Assembly (NCBI GenBank): GCA_904420465.1
Contig: CAJFVL010000015.1
Location: 1 to 32,809, forward strand
Length of the DNA: 32,809 bases
From: an uncultured Clostridium sp.
Lineage (GTDB): Bacteria > Bacillota > Clostridia > Oscillospirales > Oscillospiraceae
Reading direction: 5' to 3'
Shown: one piece after another, positions 3,120 to 26,301 of the stretch
How the letters are laid out: every line of letters starts with the position of its first letter
Numbering within the stretch: the stretch's first letter is position 1
Made by a program: the position numbers and the translations under genes
Notes under the pieces: model-generated
What the model was told of the DNA's origin: nothing
What the model saw: the letters and a program-made list of their open reading frames with translations, nothing else
Databases searched by the model: none

Positions 3120-4397
3120 TCACTCAAAGGTCCCCAGGAACAGGGGCACGCCGGTCTGCCGGTCTGCGATGCCGTAGAGGAAGGGCCGGTTAAAGTCCAG
3201 CTCAATCCCCTGAGGCTCCTCCTCAGGGGCGGCGGAGCCGCCGACAGCGTCCACCACCGTGGCGGCGGCCGCCTCGGTGCCCATTTCGTTCACTTCGATT
3301 TTGGCGGCGTGGATGACCTGGCTGAGGAAATAGCCGTCGGGGTTGTCCCCCATCCGGGAGAAGTCTGCCGCGCCGAGAGTAAAGGCCAGGTCCAGCCCCA
3401 GGGAGGAGAGCATGTCCTGAAGCTCCCCGCGCCACTCCGCCTCGAATTTGGGCAGGGTCAGCCGCAGGAAGAGGGACTCCTCCTGTTCCCCGGCGGACCG
3501 GATCAGCCGGGACAGCTCCTCCCCGGACAGGCCCTCCAGCCACCCGCCGAAGTCGGCTCCGCTGTCCTCCGGCATCAGGGCGAAAAAGACCAGCCGCCCG
3601 TCGTCATAGGGGAGGAGGGCCCCCACGCTGTCCTCCGTCTCCAGATAAGGGAAGGACTGATCGAAGTGGCGCAGGAAGTCCATCCACTCTGCCTCCCCGT
3701 CCCCGTGGGTGAACTCCAATTCCCAGGTTTCGTCCGGGTCGAACTCGGTCTCCCAGGTGTTTTTCAGGTACAGGGCGTTGACCAGCAGGGCGGCGGACTC
3801 CTCCGGGAAGGGCTGGTCGATGATGCCGGGGATCATCCCCTCGGTGCGGTCGGACACCCAGCCGTTCAAGGCATCCACAATGCCTGGGTCAGACAGCTGG
3901 GCGGAGAGCACCTGGGCGCCGAAGATGCCCATGCACCGGCCGATGAAGTCCTCCCGGATCTGGCCCTCCGGGTCCACCCACAGGCTGTTGGCGATGGAGC
4001 ACTGGGTGGAGCCCCCCAGCTCCTCATAGGTTTGGGTCAGATCCTGGCAGACGGCATTGAGCACGTCCAGCCCGGCCCCGCCGGACAGCACGGCCTCGAA
4101 TTGGGCCAGGGTGTCCCCCTCCGCTCCATTGGCTGCCATGGACAGGGCCAGCAGGATGGAGAGAGGGGAGAGGAGGGGGGAGGGCTCCCCCTCCGCCCGG
4201 ACCGCCCGAACCAGGTCCAGACCCAGGGAGGCGGCCGCTTGGTCCACGGACTGGGCCAGCTCCGGCGGGCCGTCGTAGTCGACCGCGTACACGGCGTCGG
4301 CGGTGAGCTCCTCGTACCCGGCGGCCGCCGGTCCGCAGCCGGGGAGGAGGGACAGAACCAGGGCACACAGCAGGGCGAGAGACAGGGTGCGCTTCAT
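3120..4397 (-). CDS. Serpin-family protease inhibitor, predicted lipoprotein
   Basis: A 425-residue serpin. Residues 1-21 form a lipoprotein signal (hydrophobic stretch ending LLPGC, Cys21), predicting anchoring outside the cytoplasmic membrane. Serpin landmarks include SPLSILLALSMAANGA (helix B region), NALYLKNTWETEFDP (breach/strand region) and the family signature FNRPFLYGI (402-410). The reactive loop starts with an inhibitory-type hinge, GTEAAAAT (373-380): Gly at P15, Thr at P14, Ala at P12-P9. Aligned with alpha-1-antitrypsin, P1-P1' falls near Gly387-Ser388. The segment after it is several residues longer and acidic (APEEEP), so the scissile bond is uncertain. Small residues would fit an elastase-like target. 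The start has AAAGGAGG upstream. Gut bacterial serpins are known to inhibit host or competitor serine proteases; the target here is inferred only. Confidence 0.95.
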   Translation of the reverse strand: MKRTLSLALLCALVLSLLPGCGPAAAGYEELTADAVYAVDYDGPPELAQSVDQAAASLGLDLVRAVRAEGEPSPLLSPLSILLALSMAANGAEGDTLAQFEAVLSGGAGLDVLNAVCQDLTQTYEELGGSTQCSIANSLWVDPEGQIREDFIGRCMGIFGAQVLSAQLSDPGIVDALNGWVSDRTEGMIPGIIDQPFPEESAALLVNALYLKNTWETEFDPDETWELEFTHGDGEAEWMDFLRHFDQSFPYLETEDSVGALLPYDDGRLVFFALMPEDSGADFGGWLEGLSGEELSRLIRSAGEQEESLFLRLTLPKFEAEWRGELQDMLSSLGLDLAFTLGAADFSRMGDNPDGYFLSQVIHAAKIEVNEMGTEAAAATVVDAVGGSAAPEEEPQGIELDFNRPFLYGIADRQTGVPLFLGTFE

Positions 4398-5630: not shown

Positions 5631-5659
5631 TTGACAGCGGCGGAAGATTCCGGTATGAT
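5631..5659 (+). promoter_or_regulatory. Sigma-A promoter of the cobalamin-riboswitch transcript
   Basis: A perfect -35 TTGACA (5631-5636), a 17-nt spacer and TATGAT (5654-5659). It sits about 25 bp before the riboswitch P1 stem, so transcription starts just upstream of the aptamer. Confidence 0.9.
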
Positions 5660-5683
5660 GGGGAGCGTACAACCACATACCCT

Positions 5684-5880
5684 CCCAAGTGCCTCTTCCG
5701 GCGTCCGGCCGGCGGGGGAGAATAGGAAACCGGGTGCAAGGCCCGGACGGGACCGCCGCTGTAAACGCGTCATGCCCCTCCCGTCGGCGAAAGCCGGTCA
5801 TTGGGGAGACCTGAGAAGGCAGAGAGGGGCCGGGGCCGCTTTTGCGGCCCCAGCGCGGCAAGTCAGAAGACCTGCTTGGG
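5684..5880 (+). ncRNA. Cobalamin (B12) riboswitch aptamer
   Basis: The core matches the family landmarks: AATAGGAAACCGGGTGCAAG (5721-5740), then GACGGGACCGCCGCTGTAAA (the B12-box region) and the closing AGTCAGAAGACCTGC segment near 5861-5875. A P1 stem can form between CCCAAG (5684-5689) and CTTGGG (5875-5880). A GC-rich hairpin (GGGGCCGC-tttt-GCGGCCCC) sits inside. The aptamer should bind a corrinoid and repress the downstream surface-protein gene through the terminator at 5946-5980. Confidence 0.95.
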
Positions 5881-5945
5881 AAGGATGTACCCGAGCCCCC
5901 GGGACAGGGGCGGCATGGTACAGCCAAAGGAACCGCGGAAAAAGG

Positions 5946-5980
5946 CCGCGGCAGTCGTCATGGACTGCCGCGGTTTTTGT
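5946..5980 (+). terminator. Riboswitch expression platform: intrinsic terminator
   Basis: An 11-bp perfect stem, CCGCGGCAGTC (5946-5956) and GACTGCCGCGG (5963-5973), with a GTCATG loop is followed by TTTTTGTTT. It lies between the cobalamin aptamer and the ATG at 6043. A second CCGCGG at 5933-5938 is self-complementary to the 5' arm and could act as the antiterminator strand. Confidence 0.92.
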
Positions 5981-6042
5981 TTGGGTTCCGGCGGTTGGCC
6001 GATGGATTTGGCGGCATACCGCCGGAAAGGAAGCTGTGTTTT

Positions 6043-9000
6043 ATGAGGAGAGGGAGAAGCCGTTGGGCCGGCCTGCTGCTGGCCCTGGCGCTGCTGCTGG
6101 GCCTGCTGCCCGGGACGGCCTGGGCGGCGGGGACGGTCGGGCACGTCACATTCTCCATTGAGACAAAGACCATCAATGGGGAATATCTTGTAGAGCCGAT
6201 GGAGGAGGAACTGTATCCGGGGGATACCGTCTATACCATCCTGTCACGGGTTGCCGGAGAGAAAGGAATTTCCGTAACAGGTGCGGATACCGGGTATATA
6301 AGTGAAATTGGAGGTTTTTCGGCCTTTCAATACGGCAATGACAGCGGCTGGCTGATTCTGCTGAATGGGGATTACGAGACGTGGCCGCTGCCAGATTTAA
6401 AAGATGGAGATACAGTTCGTTTTTGCTACACGTATAAAACCTATGGGTATGATATTGTTCTGATTGATTTAGTGGAAGAACTGTATGAAAAAGCAGCGGA
6501 AGCAGATTCATATAGCGGAGATAATTCAGAGGAAGTAACCGCTGCCGCAGAGGCGGCTTCCTCGATGCGGAAGAAAATATCCCAATTCGATACCTATAAA
6601 GATTACATTGATGAACTTGATACAATGGTATATGGGCCGGGTTCCGATGCCGCCAAAATCCAGCAGTTGATCACTCGCCTGGATATTGTACTGGATGGAG
6701 ACAAATATATATCAGTAGATAATGTCACTATCAAGGTACTGGATGAAAGCGGAAGCGAAGCAACAGAATATGTGGCCGGCCGAAGCTACCAGCTCCAGGC
6801 GGTATATGACCCTGTTGATGCCTCGTGGCAGAACGGCTACTGGGAGTTAGGATATGGAACTGGGGTCACAGCGACAATTACGGAAGATGGATGGCTATCG
6901 ATTACCGGCGTGGACAACACATCTTCTTTAAAGATGCTTGTAATCCAATACTTCCATCCAGAACTACAAAATGGATGTGTTAGCAAAAGCATTATAAATC
7001 AATTTAAATTGCCTCAAACCCCGGCCGATCATGTGAACGTCGCGGCAAACCAACTTACCTGGGACACCATCCGGGGGGAGAATACCTCCAGCTACGCCGT
7101 GACCTCGAACCTGACCCTCCCGACCCAACTGACCGTGGAGGAAGAATTGGTGGCCGTTACCTGGTCCTGCGACGACAACACGGGCGCGCTAGGCAGTGGA
7201 GGCTATGTGGTCCGCCCGGCGGCCCAGGACGTGTCCTGCACCCTGACGGCCGAGTTGTCCTACGAAGATGCGACTGCAACAAAGAAGTTCCCCATCACGG
7301 TGAAGGCGGAGGGGGTCAGCGAGGACAAGGTGCCGGTGAACAGCTACAGCAGCATGCTCACCAACATCGCGTCACGCTACGCCGACTCCACCGACCCCTG
7401 GGTGGTGCTGGAGATGGCCGCCTATGACGGGACAAAGCTGACGGGATTCAACAGCACGAGTATTGCTGGGGTACTTGCTGCTGTGGCGACGCAGAACGAG
7501 GTTGACCTTAGTACTTTGTCAAACCATGACTACACCAGTGAGCCCTGGAATATCCCCTATGTCCTGCTGGCCTATGACGCCGCCGGCGCGGACACTGCCG
7601 GCTTTACCAACACACGAGAGGAGTTAAAGGAGTCGCTGGTCAGCCGGTTGAATCATGTCGGAGACAGCACGGATGTGGAGGATGTCACCCCCGCCCTGGT
7701 CGCTCTGGCCCCCTATTATGGCACGGATGACGGCGTAAAAAGCGCAGTGGACAAGGGAGCCATCTGGCTGTCCCAGCACCAGAACCGAGACGGTACCTTC
7801 TCCAGCTACGGAACCAGCAACGCCAATACCTCTGCCCTGGCCGTGGTGGCCCTGTCCGCCCTGGGCATTGACGCCCATGCGGACAGCCGCTTTGTCAAGG
7901 ACAAGAGCGCCCTGGAGGGGCTGTTCTCCTTCGCCCTGGCGGACCACTCCGGTTTCGGCTACAAGGGGAATGTGACTTATAACGAGCTGGCCACCGAGCA
8001 GGGCTTCCGGGCCCTGGTGGCCTACGCCCGGATGAAGGAAAACGGGATGGCCTACAACATCTACCTGGAGGCAAAGGACAGCAGCGGCGTTGTAAAGGCC
8101 CCGGAGGTCAGCGTAGCCCCCTCCGATCCCGGCGGCGGGGGCACTGCACGGCCTGAGACGCCGGAGGAGGCGGAGGTGTCCGTCTCGGTGTCGGTGATGG
8201 TGCCCCCCGAGGGGGGCGCGGAGGGCCAGTATACCTACCGCCACAATAGAAGCGAATACACCAACCTGCTGGGGAGGGCGGCCACAATCGCCGTCCCGGA
8301 GGGGACCACCGCCCTGTCCGTCCTGGAGGAGGCGCTGGACGGCGCGGGGATCACTTACTCGGCTGGCGGCGGATACGTCACCCAAATCGGCGGTCTGGCG
8401 GAATTTGACCACGGCCCCCGCTCCGGCTGGCAGTATCTGGTGGACGGGAGCGCCCCCGTGGAGTCGGCCACCACCTATACCTTCACGGAGGACGCCGGCA
8501 TGGTGTGGTACTACACCGACGACTATGCCCGGGAGGAGAGCGGTGAGCAGTGGGCCGAGCCGGAGCCAGAGGCGCCTGCGGCGGAGGCGCAGGAGGACGG
8601 CACCTATCAGGTGACCATTCCCAGGGACCACAGCGGCCCCTCTGTGGTGGAGATCCCCGGGGCCCGGGAGGGCCAGCTGGTGGTGGTCATCCGGGCGGAC
8701 GGCACGGAGGCGGTGCTGAAAAAGGCCCTGGTGGAGGAGGGCTCCGCCTATCTGCTGCTGGAGGAGGATGCCCAGATCCGGATCGTGGACTATGAAAACC
8801 CCTTTGAAGATGTGTCCTCCGGCGCGTGGTACGCCTCCGCCGTGGACTTTGTCTCCGGCCGGGGGCTGCTCTCCGGGGTGTCGGGGTATTCCTTTGCCCC
8901 GGACGAGGGGCTGAGCCGGGGGATGCTGGTCACCGCCCTCTATGCTCTGGAGGAGCCGGGGGAACAGAGCTGGGCCTCCCTGTTTGACGATGTGGCCGGT

Positions 9001-9348
9001 GGGGACTGGTACGCCCAGGGGACGGCCTGGGCGGCACAGGCCGGGATCGTCTCCGGCTATGGGGACGGCACCTTCGGGCCGGAGGACCCCATCACCCGGG
9101 AGGAGCTGGCGGTGATGCTGTATGGCTACGCCGGTTACCTGGGGCTGGAGACGGCGGGGCAGGCGGAGTTGTCCACCTTTGCCGACAGCGGGGAGGTGTC
9201 CCCCTGGGCGGCGGAGGCTGTGGCCTGGGCGGTGGACGCGGGCATCCTCGGCGGAAAGGACGGGGGCCTGCTGGACCCCGCTGGCGGGGCCACCCGGGCC
9301 GAGGCGGCCGCCATGCTGCAGGCGCTGGTGTCCTGGATGCTGAAATAA
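6043..9348 (+). CDS. Riboswitch-controlled SLH surface protein with transcobalamin-like domains (two DUF4430, alpha/alpha toroid)
   Basis: A predicted 1101-residue exported protein. In order: signal peptide (1-28, cleavage near AWA-A); first DUF4430/transcobalamin C-terminal-like domain (about 32-135, with SGWLILLNGDYE); a short helical segment; an Ig-like region (about 225-325); a bacterial Ig-like domain (about 328-425); a helix-rich region like the prenyltransferase/terpene-cyclase toroid (about 430-690, with QNRDGTFSSYG and repeated helical pairs); a second DUF4430 domain (about 709-829, with GPRSGWQYLVDG); then three SLH repeats (about 919-1101) that bind cell-wall polymer. Toroid followed by the DUF4430 beta-domain is the domain order of intrinsic factor and transcobalamin. 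With the B12 riboswitch upstream, the inferred role is corrinoid capture at the cell surface. The start at 6043 follows AAAGGAAG and opens the signal peptide; the longer frame from 5842 runs through the riboswitch. Bases 6170-7015 are visibly AT-richer than the rest. Confidence 0.9.
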   Translation: MRRGRSRWAGLLLALALLLGLLPGTAWAAGTVGHVTFSIETKTINGEYLVEPMEEELYPGDTVYTILSRVAGEKGISVTGADTGYISEIGGFSAFQYGNDSGWLILLNGDYETWPLPDLKDGDTVRFCYTYKTYGYDIVLIDLVEELYEKAAEADSYSGDNSEEVTAAAEAASSMRKKISQFDTYKDYIDELDTMVYGPGSDAAKIQQLITRLDIVLDGDKYISVDNVTIKVLDESGSEATEYVAGRSYQLQAVYDPVDASWQNGYWELGYGTGVTATITEDGWLSITGVDNTSSLKMLVIQYFHPELQNGCVSKSIINQFKLPQTPADHVNVAANQLTWDTIRGENTSSYAVTSNLTLPTQLTVEEELVAVTWSCDDNTGALGSGGYVVRPAAQDVSCTLTAELSYEDATATKKFPITVKAEGVSEDKVPVNSYSSMLTNIASRYADSTDPWVVLEMAAYDGTKLTGFNSTSIAGVLAAVATQNEVDLSTLSNHDYTSEPWNIPYVLLAYDAAGADTAGFTNTREELKESLVSRLNHVGDSTDVEDVTPALVALAPYYGTDDGVKSAVDKGAIWLSQHQNRDGTFSSYGTSNANTSALAVVALSALGIDAHADSRFVKDKSALEGLFSFALADHSGFGYKGNVTYNELATEQGFRALVAYARMKENGMAYNIYLEAKDSSGVVKAPEVSVAPSDPGGGGTARPETPEEAEVSVSVSVMVPPEGGAEGQYTYRHNRSEYTNLLGRAATIAVPEGTTALSVLEEALDGAGITYSAGGGYVTQIGGLAEFDHGPRSGWQYLVDGSAPVESATTYTFTEDAGMVWYYTDDYAREESGEQWAEPEPEAPAAEAQEDGTYQVTIPRDHSGPSVVEIPGAREGQLVVVIRADGTEAVLKKALVEEGSAYLLLEEDAQIRIVDYENPFEDVSSGAWYASAVDFVSGRGLLSGVSGYSFAPDEGLSRGMLVTALYALEEPGEQSWASLFDDVAGGDWYAQGTAWAAQAGIVSGYGDGTFGPEDPITREELAVMLYGYAGYLGLETAGQAELSTFADSGEVSPWAAEAVAWAVDAGILGGKDGGLLDPAGGATRAEAAAMLQALVSWMLK

Positions 9349-11378: not shown

Positions 11379-11411
11379 AGGGAACGTGCTCCGGGCCGAG
11401 GGCCTGGGGAC

Positions 11412-11500
11412 CAAACAAGGGAGCTCGCAAACGGGCTGAGAGGAAGCTGTGCGCTTCGACCTGTGACCTGATTTGGGTAATGCCAACGTAGGGAGATAAC
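11412..11500 (+). ncRNA. TPP riboswitch (THI box)
   Basis: The conserved blocks are present in order: GGGAGCTCG (near 11419), ACGGGCTGAGAGG (11431-11443), GACCTGTGACCTGATTTGGG (11458-11477) and TAATGCCAACGTAGGGAG (11478-11495). These correspond to the pyrimidine- and pyrophosphate-sensing arms of the thi-box aptamer. It precedes thiM and is followed by a terminator at 11513-11560, so TPP should switch off the whole operon by early termination. Confidence 0.97.
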
Positions 11501-11512
11501 GGTTCGGCTGTT

Positions 11513-11560
11513 CTGCCGCGGGGTGTCTTTCCGTTGACACGCCCGCGGCAGTTTCATTTT
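11513..11560 (+). terminator. TPP riboswitch terminator
   Basis: A long stem, CTGCCGCGGG-GTGTC with GACACGCCCGCGGCAG (11513-11551, one bulged base), is followed by TTTCATTTT. It stops 8 nt short of the thiM ribosome site and is the expected expression platform. Confidence 0.9.
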
Positions 11561-11577
11561 GCAAAGGAGGACACGCT

Positions 11578-12399
11578 ATGCTGGGCCCCTGCTGGGACCG
11601 GGTGCGGGCCGCGGCCCCCCTGATCCACTGCATCACCAACTATGTTACCGTCAACGACGTGGCCAATGTCCTGCTGGCCTGCGGAGCCAGCCCGGTGATG
11701 GCCGACGACCCGGAGGAGGCGGAGGAGGTCACCGCGCTGGCCGCCGGGCTGTGCATCAACATCGGGACGCTGCACCGGCACACCATCCCCGCCATGTTCG
11801 CCGCTGGGGAGCGGGCCAATGCGCTGGGACATCCCGTTGTCCTGGACCCGGTGGGGGCGGGGAGCAGCGCCCTGCGCACCCACACCGCCCTGGAGCTGAT
11901 CCGGACCCTTCGGCCCGCCGTCATCCGGTGCAATATGTCGGAGATGAAGGCCCTCACCGGCCGCCTGGGGGAGGCGCGGGGGGTGGACGCCGCCCCCGCC
12001 GACGGAGTGACCGAGGAGAGTCTGGAGGGGGCTGTCTCCTTTGTGAAGGGAGCGGCCCGCCGCCTGGGGACCGTCGCTGCCGTCACCGGGGCCATCGACC
12101 TGGTGTCCAACGGGGAAACTTGCTTTGTCATCCGAAACGGCCGGCCCGAGATGGGCCGCATCACCGGCACCGGCTGCCAGCTGTCCGCCCTGACCACCGC
12201 CTGTGCGGCGGCAAACCTGGAACAGCCGCTGGAGGCGGCCGCCGCCGCGGTGGCCGCCATGGGGGTGGCGGGGGAGCTGGGCTGGGCCAACATGGCCCCC
12301 GCCGACGGCAACGCCGCCTATCGAACCCGCGTCATCGACGCCGTTTACCACCTGGATGGGGAAGCCCTGGAGAGAGGAGCGCACTATGAACTTCGATAG
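11578..12399 (+). CDS. thiM: Hydroxyethylthiazole kinase
   Basis: A 273-residue enzyme that phosphorylates 4-methyl-5-(2-hydroxyethyl)thiazole for thiamine salvage. Family motifs are PLIHCITNYVTVNDVAN (substrate site), HPVVLDPVGAGSS (nucleotide/Mg region), RCNMSEMKAL, and GRITGTGCQLSA, the anion hole with the catalytic Cys. The start follows AAAGGAGG, just after the riboswitch terminator. The end overlaps thiE by 14 nt. No thiazole-synthesis genes (thiG, thiH, thiS) are in the window, so thiazole may come from salvage. Confidence 0.97.
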   Translation: MLGPCWDRVRAAAPLIHCITNYVTVNDVANVLLACGASPVMADDPEEAEEVTALAAGLCINIGTLHRHTIPAMFAAGERANALGHPVVLDPVGAGSSALRTHTALELIRTLRPAVIRCNMSEMKALTGRLGEARGVDAAPADGVTEESLEGAVSFVKGAARRLGTVAAVTGAIDLVSNGETCFVIRNGRPEMGRITGTGCQLSALTTACAAANLEQPLEAAAAAVAAMGVAGELGWANMAPADGNAAYRTRVIDAVYHLDGEALERGAHYELR

Positions 12400-13242: not shown

Positions 13243-14040
13243 ATGAAAACAGCATTGACGATCGCTGGGACCGATCCCAGCGGAGGCGCCGGAATCCAGG
13301 CCGACATCAAGACCATGACCGCCAACGGCGTATATGCCATGAGCGCGGTCACGGCCCTGGTGGCCCAGAACACAACCGGCGTCAAAAGCATTATGGAGGC
13401 GGCCCCTGAATTTCTGGCGGAGCAGCTGGACTGCGTCTTTACTGACATCTTCCCTGACGCGGTCAAGACCGGCATGGTCTCCAGCGTGCCGCTGATCCAG
13501 GTGATCGCCCAAAAGCTCAGGGAGTACCGGGTGGACAAGCTGGTGGTGGACCCGGTGATGGTGGCCACCTCCGGCGACCGCCTGATCTCAGAGGACGCGG
13601 TGGCCGCCCTGAAGGAGCTGCTCCTCCCCCTGGCTACCGTCCTCACCCCCAACATCCCGGAGGCGGAGGTCCTCTCCGGCATGACCATCCACGGCCCCGA
13701 GGACATGGAGAAAGCCGCCCGGACCATCAGCGAGACCTACGGCTGCGCCGTGCTGTGCAAGGGGGGGCACGACCTGAACGACGCCAACGACCTGCTGTGG
13801 AGAGAGGGCGAACCCAAGTGGTTCTACGGCCGCCGCATCGACAACCCCAACACCCACGGCACCGGCTGCACCCTGTCCTCCGCCATCGCCTCCAATCTGG
13901 CCAAGGGCTATGACCTGGACGCCTCGGTGGAGCGGGCCAAGGCCTACCTGTCCGGGGCGCTGGCCTCCATGCTGGACCTGGGGAAGGGAAAGGGCCCCCT
14001 GGACCACCTCTTCGACCTGAAGGGGGACTTTGTGAAATGA
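13243..14040 (+). CDS. thiD: Hydroxymethylpyrimidine / phosphomethylpyrimidine kinase
   Basis: A 265-residue ribokinase-fold enzyme that phosphorylates HMP and HMP phosphate to HMP pyrophosphate. Motifs are TIAGTDPSGGAGIQADIKTM (substrate binding), VVDPVMVATSGDRLI, LTPNIPEAEVLSG, VLCKGGHD, and NTHGTGCTLSSAIA (anion hole with catalytic Cys). The ATG at 13243 is preceded by AAAGGAG at good spacing; the TTG at 13216 in the same frame has no ribosome site. The stop overlaps the next gene (ATGA, 14037-14040). Confidence 0.97.
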   Translation: MKTALTIAGTDPSGGAGIQADIKTMTANGVYAMSAVTALVAQNTTGVKSIMEAAPEFLAEQLDCVFTDIFPDAVKTGMVSSVPLIQVIAQKLREYRVDKLVVDPVMVATSGDRLISEDAVAALKELLLPLATVLTPNIPEAEVLSGMTIHGPEDMEKAARTISETYGCAVLCKGGHDLNDANDLLWREGEPKWFYGRRIDNPNTHGTGCTLSSAIASNLAKGYDLDASVERAKAYLSGALASMLDLGKGKGPLDHLFDLKGDFVK

Positions 14041-14648
14041 CCCTCTCCGCCGTCATCACCGCCGTCTTTACGGTGGGCTATCTGGCCGTCACCGCCTGGC
14101 TGTGCCGGGGACTGCGGCTGAACACCCGGGCCTTGTGCTACGGCGGCCTGATATGCGCCGCCACATTGGTGCTGGGCTCCTTCCTCTTCTATCTGCCCAC
14201 CGGGTCGGCTATCAGCCCGGGCTCCTGGATCCCCCTGATGCTGCTGGCCCTCACCTATGACTGGCGCCTGGCCTGCGTCACCGGGTGGGTCACCGGAATC
14301 CTGGCCATCTTCCTCATTCCCGCCTGGGCCCCCGTCCACTGGGCCCAGATCCCGGTGGAGCACCTGGTGGCCTTCTCCGCTTTGGGCTACGCCGGGGTGT
14401 TCGGCAGCGACAAGAAGTGGAAGGTGCTGTGCGGGGTGCTGCTGGCCATCTTCCTGCGCTTCATGGGCCAGATGCTGTCCGGGGTGGTGTTTTTCTCCCA
14501 GAACGCCTGGGACGGCTGGGGAGCCTGGGGGTACAGCATCACCTACCACCTGTCCTGCAAGATCCCGGAGGGCGCCGCCACCACCTTAATTATGCTGGCA
14601 CTGCCCCTGAACACCATCAAAAAAGCAATAGGAGGAAACCGGACATGA
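14037..14648 (+). CDS. thiT: Thiamine transporter S-component (ECF type), ThiT/YuaJ family
   Basis: A 203-residue integral membrane protein with about six hydrophobic helices. The second half aligns by eye with Lactococcus ThiT: VEHLVAFSALGYAG (the Glu of E-H/Y-L-V-A contacts thiamine in ThiT), then GVVFFSQNAWDGWGAWGYSI, the conserved aromatic S-Q-x-A-W-x-G-W-G-A segment that forms the ligand pocket. It binds thiamine and needs the shared energy-coupling module (EcfA, EcfA', EcfT), which is not in the window. It overlaps thiD and tenA by 4 nt each. Confidence 0.95.
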   Translation: MTLSAVITAVFTVGYLAVTAWLCRGLRLNTRALCYGGLICAATLVLGSFLFYLPTGSAISPGSWIPLMLLALTYDWRLACVTGWVTGILAIFLIPAWAPVHWAQIPVEHLVAFSALGYAGVFGSDKKWKVLCGVLLAIFLRFMGQMLSGVVFFSQNAWDGWGAWGYSITYHLSCKIPEGAATTLIMLALPLNTIKKAIGGNRT

Positions 14649-15340
14649 CCTTTCTGGAGGAATGCATCCAGGACAGCCTGCCTATCTGGGAGTCCTGCCT
14701 GGAGACGGAATTTTTAAAGGGGGTGGCCGACGGCTCCCTGCCCGAGGACTGCTTCAAGGGATACATCGTGGACGACAGCCTGTATCTGCGGGAGTACTCC
14801 AAGGTGTTTGCCTGGGGGATCATCCACTCCCGGGACATGGCGGAGATCCGCAACTACTACTCCCTGCTCTCCTTCGTCAACGAGAGCGAGGACGCCACCC
14901 GGCGGTACTACTTGAAGCGCTACGGCATCACCGACGAGGAGATCCAGCCCCTTCCCCTGCGGCCGGAAAACCGGGCCTATGTGGACTGCATGCTGTCCGC
15001 CGCCCGGGAGGGCAAAGGGGCGGCTGAGTGCATGATGGCCTGTCTGCCCTGCATGCTCAGCTACGGCTGGATCTTCGGGGAGGTCATCCGCCGCTCCCCC
15101 GGGGTGAAGGACACCCCCTACTGGCCCTTTGTGGCCGACTACGCCGGCAACCGCTATGACGCCATCTGCAAATCCTGGTCCGACTTCACCAATACGGTGT
15201 GCCGGGACCTGGACCCGGAGCGGGCCCAAAAATGCAAAGAGATCTTCCGGACCTGCTCTCTCCATGAGCTGCATTTCTGGGAGATGAGCGCCCGCCCCAG
15301 AACCGACCTGCCCGCCGCCGGTCGGAATATCGGCCTGTAA
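14645..15340 (+). CDS. tenA: TenA family aminopyrimidine aminohydrolase
   Basis: A 231-residue all-helical thiaminase-II-type protein. In thiamine salvage TenA hydrolyses 4-amino-5-aminomethyl-2-methylpyrimidine to HMP. The [18 protein letters not shown] segment contains the Cys expected to be the catalytic nucleophile (LPC). The C-terminal HELHFWEM carries a Glu in the position of the second active-site carboxylate. [17 protein letters not shown] matches the conserved N-terminal substrate region. The ATG overlaps the thiT stop (ATGA). Adjacent thiC and thiD use the HMP it yields. Confidence 0.94.
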
Positions 15341-15351
15341 GGAGGAAGAAG

Positions 15352-16659
15352 ATGGAACGAAAGTACGCCACTCAAATGGAGGCCGCCCGTCAGGGAATTG
15401 TAACTCTGGAGCTGGAGACCGTGGCCAAAAAGGAGCAGATGCGGATGGAGGAGCTGCTGCCTCTGGTGGCCCAGGGGAAAGTGGTCATTCCTGCCAACCG
15501 GCTGCATACCTGTCTGGACCCGGAGGGAGTGGGCTCCATGCTCCGAACTAAGATCAACGTGAACCTGGGGGTTTCCCGGGACTGTAAGGACTACGATGTG
15601 GAGATGGAAAAGGTGCGCTCCGCCATCCACATGGGGGCGGAGGCCATCATGGACCTGTCCAGCCATGGCAATACCCAGCCCTTCCGCCGCAGGCTGACCG
15701 CAGAGTGTCCGGCCATGATCGGCACCGTTCCGGTATACGACAGCGTCATCCACTATCAGCGGGACCTGAACACCCTGACCGCCCGGGATTTTCTGGATGT
15801 GATCCGCCTCCACGCTCAGGACGGGGTGGACTTTGTCACCCTCCACTGCGGCATCACCCGAAAGACCATTGATCAGATCCGCAGGCACAAGCGGAAGATG
15901 AACATTGTTTCCCGGGGCGGCTCTCTGGTCTTTGCCTGGATGTGCATGACAGGGGAGGAGAACCCCTTTTATGAGTTCTACGACGAAATTTTGGATATCT
16001 GTCGGGAATACGACGTGACCATCTCCCTGGGCGATGCCTGCCGCCCCGGCTGTCTGGCCGACGCCACCGATGTGTGCCAGATCGAAGAGCTGGTCCGTCT
16101 GGGCGAGCTGACCCGTCGGGCCTGGGAGAAGGACGTGCAGGTGATGGTGGAGGGGCCAGGTCATGTGCCCATGGACCAGATTGCCGCCAATATGAAGGTA
16201 CAGCAGACCATCTGTATGGGGGCGCCTTTCTATGTGCTGGGTCCCCTGGTCACCGACATTGCGCCCGGCTACGATCACATCACCGCTGCCATCGGCGGAG
16301 CCATGGCCGCGATGAACGGAGCTGCATTCCTGTGCTATGTCACCCCGGCGGAGCATCTGGCCCTGCCCAACGTGGACGATGTGAAGCAGGGCATCATCGC
16401 CAGCAAGATCGCCGCCCACGCCGCCGACATTGCCAAGGGGGTCCGGGGCGCCCGGGACATCGATGACAAAATGGGAGATGCCCGCCGCCGCCTGGACTGG
16501 GAGGGACAGTGGGCCTGCGCCCTGGACCCGGAGACTGCCCGTGCCATCCGGGATGACCGAGCCCCCGAGCACGATGACACCTGCTCCATGTGCGGCAAAT
16601 TCTGCGCTGTGCGCAGCATGAACAAAGCGCTCAGCGGCGAGTTTATCGACATCCTGTGA
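15352..16659 (+). CDS. thiC: Phosphomethylpyrimidine synthase
   Basis: A 435-residue radical-SAM enzyme converting aminoimidazole ribotide to HMP phosphate. Motifs include [62 protein letters not shown] and [15 protein letters not shown]. The C-terminal non-canonical cluster motif is [10 protein letters not shown] (C-x2-C-x4-C). The length is that of the short bacterial and archaeal form lacking the plant/proteobacterial N-terminal extension. AAGGAGG precedes the ATG; it is the last gene of the TPP-controlled operon and is followed by a terminator. Confidence 0.98.
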
Positions 16660-22888: not shown

Positions 22889-24046
22889 ATGACTACCATC
22901 TATCTGATTCGTCACGCCGAGGCCGAGGGCAACCTGTACCGCCGCATTCACGGCTGGTACGACGCGCTGATTACCGAAAACGGCTTCCGCCAGATTGAGG
23001 CCCTTCAGCGCCGCTTTCAGGACGTCCGGGTGGACGCGGTGTGGTCCAGCGACCTCCACCGCACCATGACCACCGCCCGGGCCGTCTATGTGCCCAAGGG
23101 GCTGGAGCTGCACACCGACCCCCAGCTGCGGGAGCTCAATTTCGGGGACTGGGAGGACCAGCCCTGGGGCCAGGTGTACCGCGACGAGCCGGAGCGCATC
23201 GGCCAGTTCAACCGCACCGACCCCGCCTGGCGGGCGCCGGGGGGAGAGAGCCTGGCGGAGGCGGGCCGGAGGGCCGGCGGGGCGCTGGAGCGGATCGCAC
23301 GGGAGCATCCGGATCAAACTGTGGCTGTTTTTTCCCACGGCACCGCCATGCGGCAGCTGCTGGCCAATATCAAGGGCCTGTCCCCCCAGGAGTGGCACAC
23401 CATGGGCCACAGCGAGAACACCGCTGTCACCCGGCTGGAGTGGGATGGGGAGCGCTTCCATATTGCGTTTGAGAGCGATGCCTCCCACCTGGACCCGTCC
23501 ATCGCCACCCTGGGCCGGCAGGCCTGGTGGCGGAAGGACGGGGTGCGCCGGGAGGATGTGAATCTGTGGTACCGGCCCATCCGCTGGCCGGAGGAGCGGG
23601 AGCTGTACCTGGAGGCCCGGCGGGAGGCCTGGCGCTCCACCCACGGGGAGAGTGTTCCCTTTGACGGGGAGGGCTTTTTGCGGGATGCCCAGCTTCACCT
23701 GTCCCGCACTCCCTGGGCGGTGACGGCTGCCATGGCGGGTGAGAAGGTGGCCGGCCTGCTTCAGCTGGACCCGGAGCGGTACAGCGGGGAACATGCGGGG
23801 TACATCCCGTTCTGCTACATCTGCCCGGACCGCCGGGGAATGGGCCTGGGGGTCCAGCTCATCGGACAGGCGGTGTCCTTCTACCGCCCGCTGGGACGGG
23901 ACAGCCTGCGGCTGCGCTGCGCCCCTTATAACAGCCGGGCCCAGCATTTTTATGCCAAGCACGGCTTCCGGAAGATCGGGGAGGAGCAGGGGAGCCGGGT
24001 TCCTCTGGACATCCTGGAAAAGTACATCGGGTATGGAGAGCACTGA
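22889..24046 (+). CDS. Fusion: histidine phosphatase + GNAT N-acetyltransferase
   Basis: 385 residues with two domains. Residues 1 to about 205 are a phosphoglycerate-mutase-like histidine phosphatase: YLIRHAEAEGN (catalytic RH), SSDLHRTMTTA, LRELNFGDWED and VAVFSHGTAMR (second His). From about 215 to the end is a GNAT fold, with motif A in YICPDRRGMGLGVQLIGQA (R-x-x-G-x-G acetyl-CoA binding) and NSRAQHFYAKHGFRKIGEE typical of GNAT motif B. AAAGGAAG precedes the ATG. The substrate of either half is unknown. There is no frameshift between the halves, so the fusion is real in this sequence. Confidence 0.92.
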   Translation: MTTIYLIRHAEAEGNLYRRIHGWYDALITENGFRQIEALQRRFQDVRVDAVWSSDLHRTMTTARAVYVPKGLELHTDPQLRELNFGDWEDQPWGQVYRDEPERIGQFNRTDPAWRAPGGESLAEAGRRAGGALERIAREHPDQTVAVFSHGTAMRQLLANIKGLSPQEWHTMGHSENTAVTRLEWDGERFHIAFESDASHLDPSIATLGRQAWWRKDGVRREDVNLWYRPIRWPEERELYLEARREAWRSTHGESVPFDGEGFLRDAQLHLSRTPWAVTAAMAGEKVAGLLQLDPERYSGEHAGYIPFCYICPDRRGMGLGVQLIGQAVSFYRPLGRDSLRLRCAPYNSRAQHFYAKHGFRKIGEEQGSRVPLDILEKYIGYGEH

Positions 24047-24889: not shown

Positions 24890-25438
24890 ATGCGTTTTCA
24901 ATACTGTCCCCACTGCGGGACCAAGGCTGTTTTGAAAGAAATCGGAGACGAGGGGCTGGTTCCCTGGTGCCCGGAATGCCGCCTTCCCCTGTTTCCCATG
25001 TTTTCGGTATGTATCATAGCCCTGGCGGTGGATGAGAGGGGCGAGGTGGCCCTGCTGCGGCAGGGCTATATCTCCGCCCAGTATCATGTGCTGGTGTCCG
25101 GGTACATGAAGCCCGGCGAATCGGCGGAGGAGTGTGCCGCCAGGGAGATTCAGGAGGAGCTGGGGCTGGAGGTCACCGGACTGTCTGCCGCGGGCACCTA
25201 CTGGTATGGGAAGAAGGATATGCTGATGATCGGCTTTATTGCCAAGGTACATAAAGGGGCGTTTCAGCTCTCCCAGGAGGTGGATCAGGCGGTCTGGGTC
25301 CGGCCGGAGCAGGCCAGGACCATGCTCCATCCCGACAGTACAGCCATTTCCCGGCTGGTGCTGGAGGAATATCTGCGGCGCGGGGAAAGTGCCCCTCAGG
25401 GGGAAAATATGTTGTCAGAAGGGAGCGGTGCGCGATGA
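24890..25438 (+). CDS. Nudix hydrolase with N-terminal zinc ribbon (NudC-like)
   Basis: 182 residues. The N-terminal zinc ribbon (CPHC ... CPEC, residues 6-30) is followed by a Nudix fold. The Nudix box GYMKPGESAEECAAREIQEELGL keeps the G-x5-E-x7-RE-x2-EE-x-G pattern. The ribbon-plus-Nudix order is that of NADH pyrophosphatase NudC, but the N-terminal NudC domain is missing and the downstream SQPWPxPxS signature is not seen. A nucleotide-diphosphate substrate is therefore only inferred. It overlaps metF by 4 nt (ATGA), so the two are coupled. Confidence 0.9.
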   Translation: MRFQYCPHCGTKAVLKEIGDEGLVPWCPECRLPLFPMFSVCIIALAVDERGEVALLRQGYISAQYHVLVSGYMKPGESAEECAAREIQEELGLEVTGLSAAGTYWYGKKDMLMIGFIAKVHKGAFQLSQEVDQAVWVRPEQARTMLHPDSTAISRLVLEEYLRRGESAPQGENMLSEGSGAR

Positions 25439-26301
25439 AGCTGTGTGAGCTTTTCGGCCGGGGGAGGACGGTATTTTCCTGTGAGGTGTTTCCGCCGAAA
25501 AGGACCAGCCCGGTGGACAGCATCTACCAGACGCTGGACGGATTAAAGGATATCAAGCCGGATTTTATCAGCGTCACCTTTGGGGCCGGGGGGTCCCAGG
25601 TGAACCAGACCACCCGGGAGATCGCCGGCATTATCCAGAATCAGTACCACATTCCCGCCATGGCCCACCTGACCTGCGTGGGGGCCGGAAGGGCCGAGGT
25701 GGATGAGATGCTCTCCCAGTTGAAGGAGGACGGGGTGGAGAATATTCTGGCCTTGCGGGGAGACGTCAACCCCGATGTTCCGCCCAAAACTGATTTTGCC
25801 CATGCCAGTGACCTGGTGGCCTATATCCGCGGGAGGGGGGACTTCGGCGTCTCCGCCGCCTGCTATCCGGAGGGGCATCTGGAGAGCCCTGATCTGGTCA
25901 GCGATATCCGCCATCTGAAGGAAAAGGTGGACGCCGGGGCCCAGCATTTGGTCAGCCAGCTGTTTTTTGACAATGAGGACTTTTTCCGCTTTCTGGAGCG
26001 GGCCCGCATTGCCGGAATCAATGTCCCCATCGAGGCGGGCATCATGCCCGTGCTGTCCAAAAGCTCCATTCAGCGGATGGTATCCATGTGCGGGGCCAGC
26101 ATGCCCCGAAAGCTGACCCGTATCCTGGCCCGGTACGGCGATCATCCAGAGGCGCTGCGGGAGGCGGGAATCGCCTATGCCATTGACCAGATTGCGGATC
26201 TGATTGCCGGAGGGGTGGATGGCATCCACCTGTACACTATGAACACCCCGGAGGTGGCCCGACAGATTGCCGGCAGCCTGTCCTCCATCCGGCGGGTGTG
26301 A
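25435..26301 (+). CDS. metF: Methylenetetrahydrofolate reductase
   Basis: A 288-residue TIM-barrel flavoprotein reducing 5,10-methylene-THF to 5-methyl-THF. Motifs are FSCEVFPPK (catalytic Glu), FISVTFGAGGS, MAHLTCVG, NILALRGDVN, AACYPEGH and LVSQLFFDNEDFFRF, then IEAGIMPVLSKSS. In anaerobes it feeds methionine synthesis and, where present, the Wood-Ljungdahl methyl branch. The ATG overlaps the Nudix stop; GGGAGCGG is the likely ribosome site. No methionine synthase (metH) is adjacent. Confidence 0.96.
   Translation: MKLCELFGRGRTVFSCEVFPPKRTSPVDSIYQTLDGLKDIKPDFISVTFGAGGSQVNQTTREIAGIIQNQYHIPAMAHLTCVGAGRAEVDEMLSQLKEDGVENILALRGDVNPDVPPKTDFAHASDLVAYIRGRGDFGVSAACYPEGHLESPDLVSDIRHLKEKVDAGAQHLVSQLFFDNEDFFRFLERARIAGINVPIEAGIMPVLSKSSIQRMVSMCGASMPRKLTRILARYGDHPEALREAGIAYAIDQIADLIAGGVDGIHLYTMNTPEVARQIAGSLSSIRRV

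Follow-up and report, generated by a model that had tools for sequence, protein, structure and literature searches.

Secreted or surface proteins of Gram-positive bacteria in which an alpha/alpha toroid is fused to a beta-grasp domain of the transcobalamin type (SLBB) were predicted by Burroughs et al. in 2007 to be scavengers of vitamin B12 or its precursors (PMC1796856). According to the portions of that paper covered here, such proteins generally occur in operons with CbiO/CbiQ-like genes, and the bacteria having them are usually without key enzymes of B12 synthesis; the covered main text mentions neither a riboswitch nor SLH domains, and no binding data were met in it. The present analysis concerns a related protein, P0001, encoded in a stretch of 32,809 nucleotides from an uncultured Clostridium sp. 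of the Oscillospiraceae (assembly GCA_904420465.1, contig CAJFVL010000015.1). This whole stretch, hereafter the window, is contig C15 of the source genome, which is 88.6% complete. The gene of P0001 is led by a cobalamin riboswitch, and its product is quite probably a wall-bound corrinoid capture protein, belonging to the B12-scavenging regulon of an apparent B12 auxotroph and feeding import by an energy-coupling factor (ECF) system. B12 capture at the cell surface is considered probable because a B12 switch, domains of the animal-carrier type and apparent B12 auxotrophy are found together.

Both the architecture and a role in scavenging had already been predicted in 2007. What is new here is a form anchored by SLH domains and led by a riboswitch, together with its two-locus regulon and the count against the corrin-ring gene cbiC; this count extends the 2007 statement on missing B12 enzymes within one genus. 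In the literature searched, which leaves most subscription papers and all preprints outside, no riboswitch-led SLH-anchored form is described as judged by titles and the beginnings of abstracts, and no experimental test of such a form was found. Likewise, the covered parts of PMC2667541, PMC3766115, PMC4285132 and PMC11477304 describe no riboswitch-led SLH protein.

The riboswitch-led gene and its product

The leader upstream of the gene contains a promoter, an aptamer and two overlapping hairpins (Table 1). The promoter has 11 of the 12 consensus bases, where 0.1 such sites are expected from shuffled sequences, and its -35 element TTGACA is the same in five aligned related leaders. The aptamer match extends over model positions 1-189 of 189 and scores 78.7 bits (E 5e-18), the gathering score being 31.5. 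Three terminator-like sites, two of them on the other strand, are located in the 541-base region, in which shuffles average 0.7; the terminator hairpin folds far better than its own shuffles (z -4.6). The predicted antiterminator hairpin, taken alone, is no more stable than shuffled sequences (z -0.76), and its sequence is nearly identical across five leaders, two of which come from operons of the type found on contig C25 of the source genome. The two hairpins are mutually exclusive because bases 5946-5951 are used by both. In the leader copy of the source genome's own C25, a G-C pair replaces an A-U pair of the window's terminator stem, with both sides altered (as seen by eye).

Judged by this anatomy of promoter, aptamer, antiterminator and terminator, the leader reads as a transcriptional off-switch. 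Its predicted response is to adenosylcobalamin (AdoCbl): a low intracellular level would favor the antiterminator and allow both riboswitch-led loci described here to be transcribed, and a high level would favor the terminator. All the elements that a sequence-only reading had placed ahead of one large exported protein, namely a sigma-A promoter, a cobalamin aptamer and a terminator, were detected. In Dehalobacter restrictus, which is a clostridial relative in a broad sense, corrinoid starvation raises the expression of genes located behind terminator-bearing cobalamin riboswitches, according to the covered part of the study (PMC4285132).

Translation is assigned to start at the ATG at 6043, which has AAAGGAAG 9 bases upstream (by eye). 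The TTG at 5842, the start of the longer listed frame, is rejected because it sits within the riboswitch. The protein would be exported, and its SLH domains would hold it in the wall. Over the whole protein, DUF4430 (PF14478) scores 66.4 bits in two stretches, above the curated cut-off, and the first domain alone scores 26.9 bits against a cut-off of 23.8. In addition, a PDB search aligned residues 920-1092 with an SLH region of solved structure, and a search of the window protein against NCBIfam gave nothing over cut-off. The three SLH anchors, the order of toroid followed by DUF4430 and the extra N-terminal DUF4430 domain, all claimed by the sequence-only reading, are thus found by Pfam and the family profile.

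The same reading regarded the two DUF4430 domains as a device for holding two ligands or clamping one, which finds no support here. A DUF4430-like domain upstream of the toroid is present in just 7 of 31 fused proteins, including the window's own, whose N-terminal copy was in the training alignment of the profile used for this count, and eight aligned N-termini have weak likeness only. The clamp idea is set aside because the N-terminal domain is not conserved. A DUF4430-like domain after the toroid is found in 29 of the 31 fused proteins, again with the window's own included. By sequence, the number of beta-grasp domains varies between relatives. The SLH proteins at loci L066 and L070 have three DUF4430-like stretches after the toroid (by profile in both, and by Pfam in L066). 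The SLH fusion of Cellulosilyticum ruminicola (L067, 5056-8027) is split over two overlapping frames, through a break or a sequencing error.

The relation to animal B12 carriers was approached through a toroid family profile built from 28 toroid regions and a joint toroid-DUF4430 profile built from 52 rows. The window protein itself has no Pfam toroid match, and its residues 556-643 give a weak PDB match to squalene-cyclase-like proteins (E 0.007). The toroid profile finds squalene-hopene cyclases as its best PDB matches (E 1.2e-20), and lower ones are alpha-2-macroglobulin (about 1e-4), two designed proteins (0.003), transcobalamin-1 (0.0096) and complement proteins. The designed proteins apart, we take all of these to be alpha/alpha toroids. 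The joint profile reaches transcobalamin-2 in the PDB (E 0.010), with its positions 258-352, the DUF4430 part, lying on chain residues 310-402 of 409. Moreover, 5 of the 52 aligned members reach Cobalamin_bind (PF01122) at E values up to 1 (best 6.6e-5), and a scan of nine relatives for this family gave one match, L085, at 19.6 bits against a cut-off of 25. These profile matches suggest homology to the animal carriers, remote by sequence. We infer that the toroid and the DUF4430 domain following it bind a corrinoid, which would be sandwiched by them in the manner of transcobalamin's two domains.

With squalene-hopene cyclases as the best sequence matches, the toroid could also be cyclase-like or a structural spacer, in a general surface protein that has a riboswitch ahead of it by chance; large SLH proteins are common. 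We consider this highly improbable, since the pairing with riboswitches and ECF genes recurs in the 45 loci and 60 genomes described below, and since transporter operons also encode the toroid as a protein of its own beside a DUF4430 protein.

Table 1 Leader elements and protein domains of the riboswitch-led gene, in window coordinates.
Feature	Position	Strand	Basis
Sigma-A-type promoter, TTGACA-17-TATGAT	5631..5659	+	Consensus scan against shuffles
Cobalamin riboswitch aptamer, RF00174	5670..5893	+	Covariance model match
Predicted antiterminator hairpin, CCGCGG-AAAAAGG-CCGCGG	5933..5951	+	Conserved sequence in five leaders
Intrinsic terminator hairpin, T-rich tail after it	5941..5978	+	Hairpin scan and folding against shuffles
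Exported wall-anchored protein P0001, 1101 amino acids	6043..9348	+	Translation and Pfam
Signal peptide, about residues 1-28	6043..6126	+	By eye from translation
First DUF4430 beta-grasp domain, residues 60-130	6220..6432	+	Pfam
aBig_2 immunoglobulin (Ig)-like domain, residues 334-422	7042..7308	+	Pfam, family E 1.4e-11
Alpha/alpha-toroid-like region, residues 469-680	7447..8082	+	Family profile
Second DUF4430 domain, residues 754-825, conserved G..SGW motif	8302..8517	+	Pfam
Three SLH domains, about residues 916-1095	8788..9327	+	PF00395, E 4e-32, three stretches

The second locus and the candidate importer

In the source genome, DUF4430 passes the threshold at two places and two cobalamin riboswitches are found; these pair up, one pair on C15 and the other on C25. 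At the C25 locus (L005), the riboswitch is followed by a toroid protein, a DUF4430 protein, an EcfT-like protein and a double ECF ATPase with an S component. The toroid-like protein is composed of 342 amino acids and has a hydrophobic C-terminus, with Prenyltrans below cut-off (16.4 against 26.5), and the DUF4430 protein of 228 amino acids has a hydrophobic N-terminus. These hydrophobic ends, recognized by eye, would anchor the split toroid and DUF4430 proteins in the membrane.

The EcfT-like protein (12547-13419 of L005) is itself without a Pfam match. Among three homologues scanned, the one at L071 matches CbiQ (27.6 bits against 25) and the other two do not. The next frame (13392-16013) encodes 873 amino acids with ABC_tran twice and an ECF S-component region, PF07155 being above cut-off. 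For this tandem ATPase, TIGR01166 (cbiO) is the sole pass among the best 25 of 196 NCBIfam families, and the other four of the five partner queries gave nothing over cut-off in NCBIfam. EcfT, ECF ATPases and an S component are therefore all present behind a cobalamin riboswitch at L005.

On this gene order, the importer partner is likely an ECF-type system composed of the CbiQ/EcfT-like protein, the tandem ATPase and the S component. It is preferred over the BtuFCD-type importer of the sequence-only reading because the second riboswitch leads toroid, DUF4430 and ECF-type genes. The one FecCD locus found, which includes a Peripla_BP_2 protein, is on contig C18, apart from the cobalamin riboswitches on C15 and C25; as its contig has no cobalamin riboswitch, a BtuFCD partner is set aside. 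The C18 permease may transport B12.

The two loci are arranged differently among relatives. In genome G028 (L062), the SLH fusion, the toroid protein, the DUF4430 protein, EcfT and the ATPase stand in one row behind one riboswitch. Genome G031 retains the two-locus form and has an aldo-keto reductase gene upstream of the fusion gene, alike to that of the window by eye. In the cultured relative Pseudoflavonifractor phocaeensis An901 (L058, genome G060), the SLH fusion gene is also located behind a riboswitch; of the two DUF4430 places in this genome, the second lies 69 kb from the first on the same contig and is followed by EcfT and then by ATPase/S-component frames.

The separation of the fusion gene from the transporter operon, seen in the window genome and G031, and the SLH anchor, which puts the protein in the wall and away from the membrane, would also suit a protein that binds corrinoid as a wall store, or to deny it to neighbours, and not for uptake. 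Such a role is unlikely in our view, since an SLH fusion stands alongside an EcfT gene at 8 of 45 loci (L061, L062, L064, L071, L077, L078, L086 and L099, with L062 being the G028 locus), and a leader halting transcription at high B12 suits uptake more than storage.

Capture for uptake would require the cargo, presumably a corrinoid, to pass from the wall to the membrane. In the proposed mechanism, the cargo would be handed to the membrane-held split toroid and DUF4430 proteins encoded behind the second riboswitch, and the ECF-type transporter encoded there would then import it. An ECF importer fed by such an external relay, running from the wall carrier through split, membrane-held forms of its two domains to the S component, is offered tentatively, as a possibility that we rate slightly below an even chance.

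Distribution, auxotrophy and the nature of the ligand

A set of 60 genomes, the source genome included, contains 66 cobalamin riboswitches and 66 DUF4430 matches; stricter filters were used in this riboswitch search, and weak matches are lost from the count. Riboswitches and DUF4430 matches were paired on the same strand within 8.5 kb, a limit of our choice, and the largest distance is 7.4 kb. A DUF4430 match lies downstream of 39 of the 66 riboswitches, and 41 of the 66 DUF4430 matches lie behind a riboswitch (18 of 28 in frames of at least 210 amino acids and 23 of 38 in shorter frames).

Scanning genome contigs with an alignment of toroid-DUF4430 sequences yielded 45 loci. Five of these (L059, L062, L064, L082 and L089) appear to be from the 60 genomes, so that the two sets overlap. 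A cobalamin-type riboswitch (RF00174, RF01482 or RF01689) is located upstream on the same strand at 27 of the 45 loci, or at 26 of 36 once nine loci are left out in which fewer than 250 bases precede the first matched frame. For L082, one of these nine, a riboswitch does show up in L045, which covers more of the same contig. The toroid and DUF4430 are joined in one frame at 30 loci, 25 of which carry SLH. An EcfT homologue is present at 19 of the 45; of the five sequences that make up the EcfT profile used for this count, three were taken from these loci and so match it necessarily.

Several individual loci depart from the arrangement in the window. At L089 (L050 is the same contig), positions 4067-4141 match the AdoCbl-II riboswitch with 38.7 bits against 36.5, and a toroid-DUF4430 frame follows after about 1.1 kb, so the association may extend beyond one riboswitch class. 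At L075, L081, L091 and L093, the last three being Eggerthellales, toroid and DUF4430 are encoded as separate proteins; EcfT and ATPase frames are present at L075, L081 and L093, and an AdoCbl riboswitch at L075 and L081. Small stand-alone DUF4430 genes lie 209 and 232 bases behind cobalamin riboswitches at L042:3314-4436 (G007) and L043:10051-11167 (G029), and each is followed by a gene for a 171-amino-acid hydrophobic protein with no Pfam match; the pair is perhaps a second, minimal B12 uptake unit. Genomes G002, G007, G017, G021 and G033 (for example L041, L052 and L053) contain frames of about 1460-1510 amino acids with DUF4430, about 3.3 kb behind a cobalamin riboswitch. These five genomes have no match to the toroid-DUF4430 query, leaving a riboswitch-led large protein in which no toroid is detected.

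The presence of cbiC was counted in a pilot of 12 genomes, four of them picked for lacking DUF4430, and then in the entire set of 60. Of the 42 genomes with DUF4430, 2 have cbiC, versus 14 of the 18 without (Fisher p 2e-8, a value that ignores shared ancestry). The counts are 1 of 27 versus 11 of 12 at a completeness of at least 90%, and 2 of 25 versus 10 of 12 within the genus, source genome included. In addition, none of the 12 genomes matching the toroid-DUF4430 query has cbiC. The incomplete source genome gave no match to CbiC or CobS, and it encodes one MetH-type methionine synthase protein with both B12-binding domains (contig C80). By gene content, the source organism seems unable to make B12. 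The corrinoid-scavenging role given to the protein in the sequence-only reading is well supported, as both DUF4430 genes lie behind the two cobalamin riboswitches and DUF4430 goes with the absence of cbiC. The window also contains a methylenetetrahydrofolate reductase gene (25435-26301, E 6e-83), whose product could provide the B12-dependent methionine synthase-type protein of C80 with its methyl donor.

The ligand could still be something else linked to B12, for instance a metal chelate or a product of B12 breakdown, with the riboswitch merely reporting the corrinoid state. The S component falls into generic ECF families only, and CbiQ/CbiO-type systems are best known for cobalt. Beta-grasp superfamily domains, moreover, are predicted to bind several ligands, as stated in the covered part of the 2007 paper, which also describes toroid plus beta-grasp as the pair that sandwiches the corrinoid in transcobalamin (PMC1796856). 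The latter point and the absence of cbiC from nearly all genomes with DUF4430 leave little room for such a ligand; cobalt for de novo synthesis is an unlikely cargo because cbiC is nearly always absent beside DUF4430. A corrinoid is retained as the probable ligand.

Capture of a corrinoid by a relative of the animal carriers, under riboswitch control and for ECF import, has to be weighed against a number of adverse observations. Concerning homology, the designed proteins (0.0028) outrank transcobalamin-1 in the toroid profile search, the window protein has no match to PF01122 at E 1, and profiles of DUF4430 only place transcobalamin at E 1.7 and 0.12, beneath unrelated or designed proteins; because of these two values, homology to the animal carriers is suggested rather than proven. 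Concerning regulation, 25 of the 66 DUF4430 matches are not behind a riboswitch match, and 18 of the 45 loci are without a riboswitch, 10 of these with upstream DNA. Concerning auxotrophy, G003 and G018 have both DUF4430 and cbiC, and the missing CbiC and CobS are not proof of auxotrophy because the source genome is 88.6% complete. Concerning the importer, the S component is assigned to generic ECF families only, and the assignment does not give its substrate. Finally, the 11-kb stretch around the second DUF4430 gene of P. phocaeensis (L107, G060:C22:118000-129000) shows no riboswitch and no toroid frame, so that this species hardly fits a strict regulon of two riboswitches and four parts.

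Other genes in the window surround this system. A serpin gene (PF00079, E 3e-74) lies upstream of the riboswitch-led gene on the minus strand (3120-4397). Further downstream, a thiamine pyrophosphate (TPP) riboswitch, at 55.2 bits barely over gathering, precedes a hydroxyethylthiazole kinase gene, and a ThiC gene lies beyond (11407-12399 and 15352-16659). One frame at 22889-24046 combines histidine phosphatase and GNAT acetyltransferase domains.

Comparison with known systems

The analysis describes a concrete system for Oscillospiraceae and other Clostridia; P. phocaeensis An901, with its riboswitch ahead of the SLH fusion, is a named strain suited to testing it. Animal transcobalamin, intrinsic factor and haptocorrin, composed of PF01122 and a C-terminal beta domain, have the same order of toroid and beta-grasp as the window protein, and remote profile matches connect them to both the toroid and the beta part of the window family. 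The window protein is set apart from them by having no PF01122 match. To our knowledge, the animal carriers are soluble proteins that have no Ig-like or SLH domains and no additional DUF4430 domain at the N-terminus. Compared with the proteins described by Burroughs et al., the window fusion is SLH-anchored, led by a riboswitch and, in the window genome, located apart from the ECF operon.

Surface capture of B12 is likewise known in gut bacteria from the surface lipoproteins of Bacteroides, according to the covered part of their description (PMC6143338). Unlike the window protein, these are lipoproteins of Gram-negatives. We take the protein concerned to be BtuG, which has a beta-propeller fold and is a partner of BtuB. 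ECF-type import of B12, as proposed here, is represented by the transporter CbrT in the covered part of its report (PMC6593275). In the source genome, by comparison, the ECF system is accompanied by predicted secreted carriers. ECF transporters are thought to catch their substrate by the membrane S component alone. If the relay from wall carrier to S component is true, the source organism would have an ECF system with dedicated extracellular substrate-binding proteins, and the relay would be a Gram-positive counterpart to both the carrier chain of animals and the surface B12 lipoproteins of Bacteroides.

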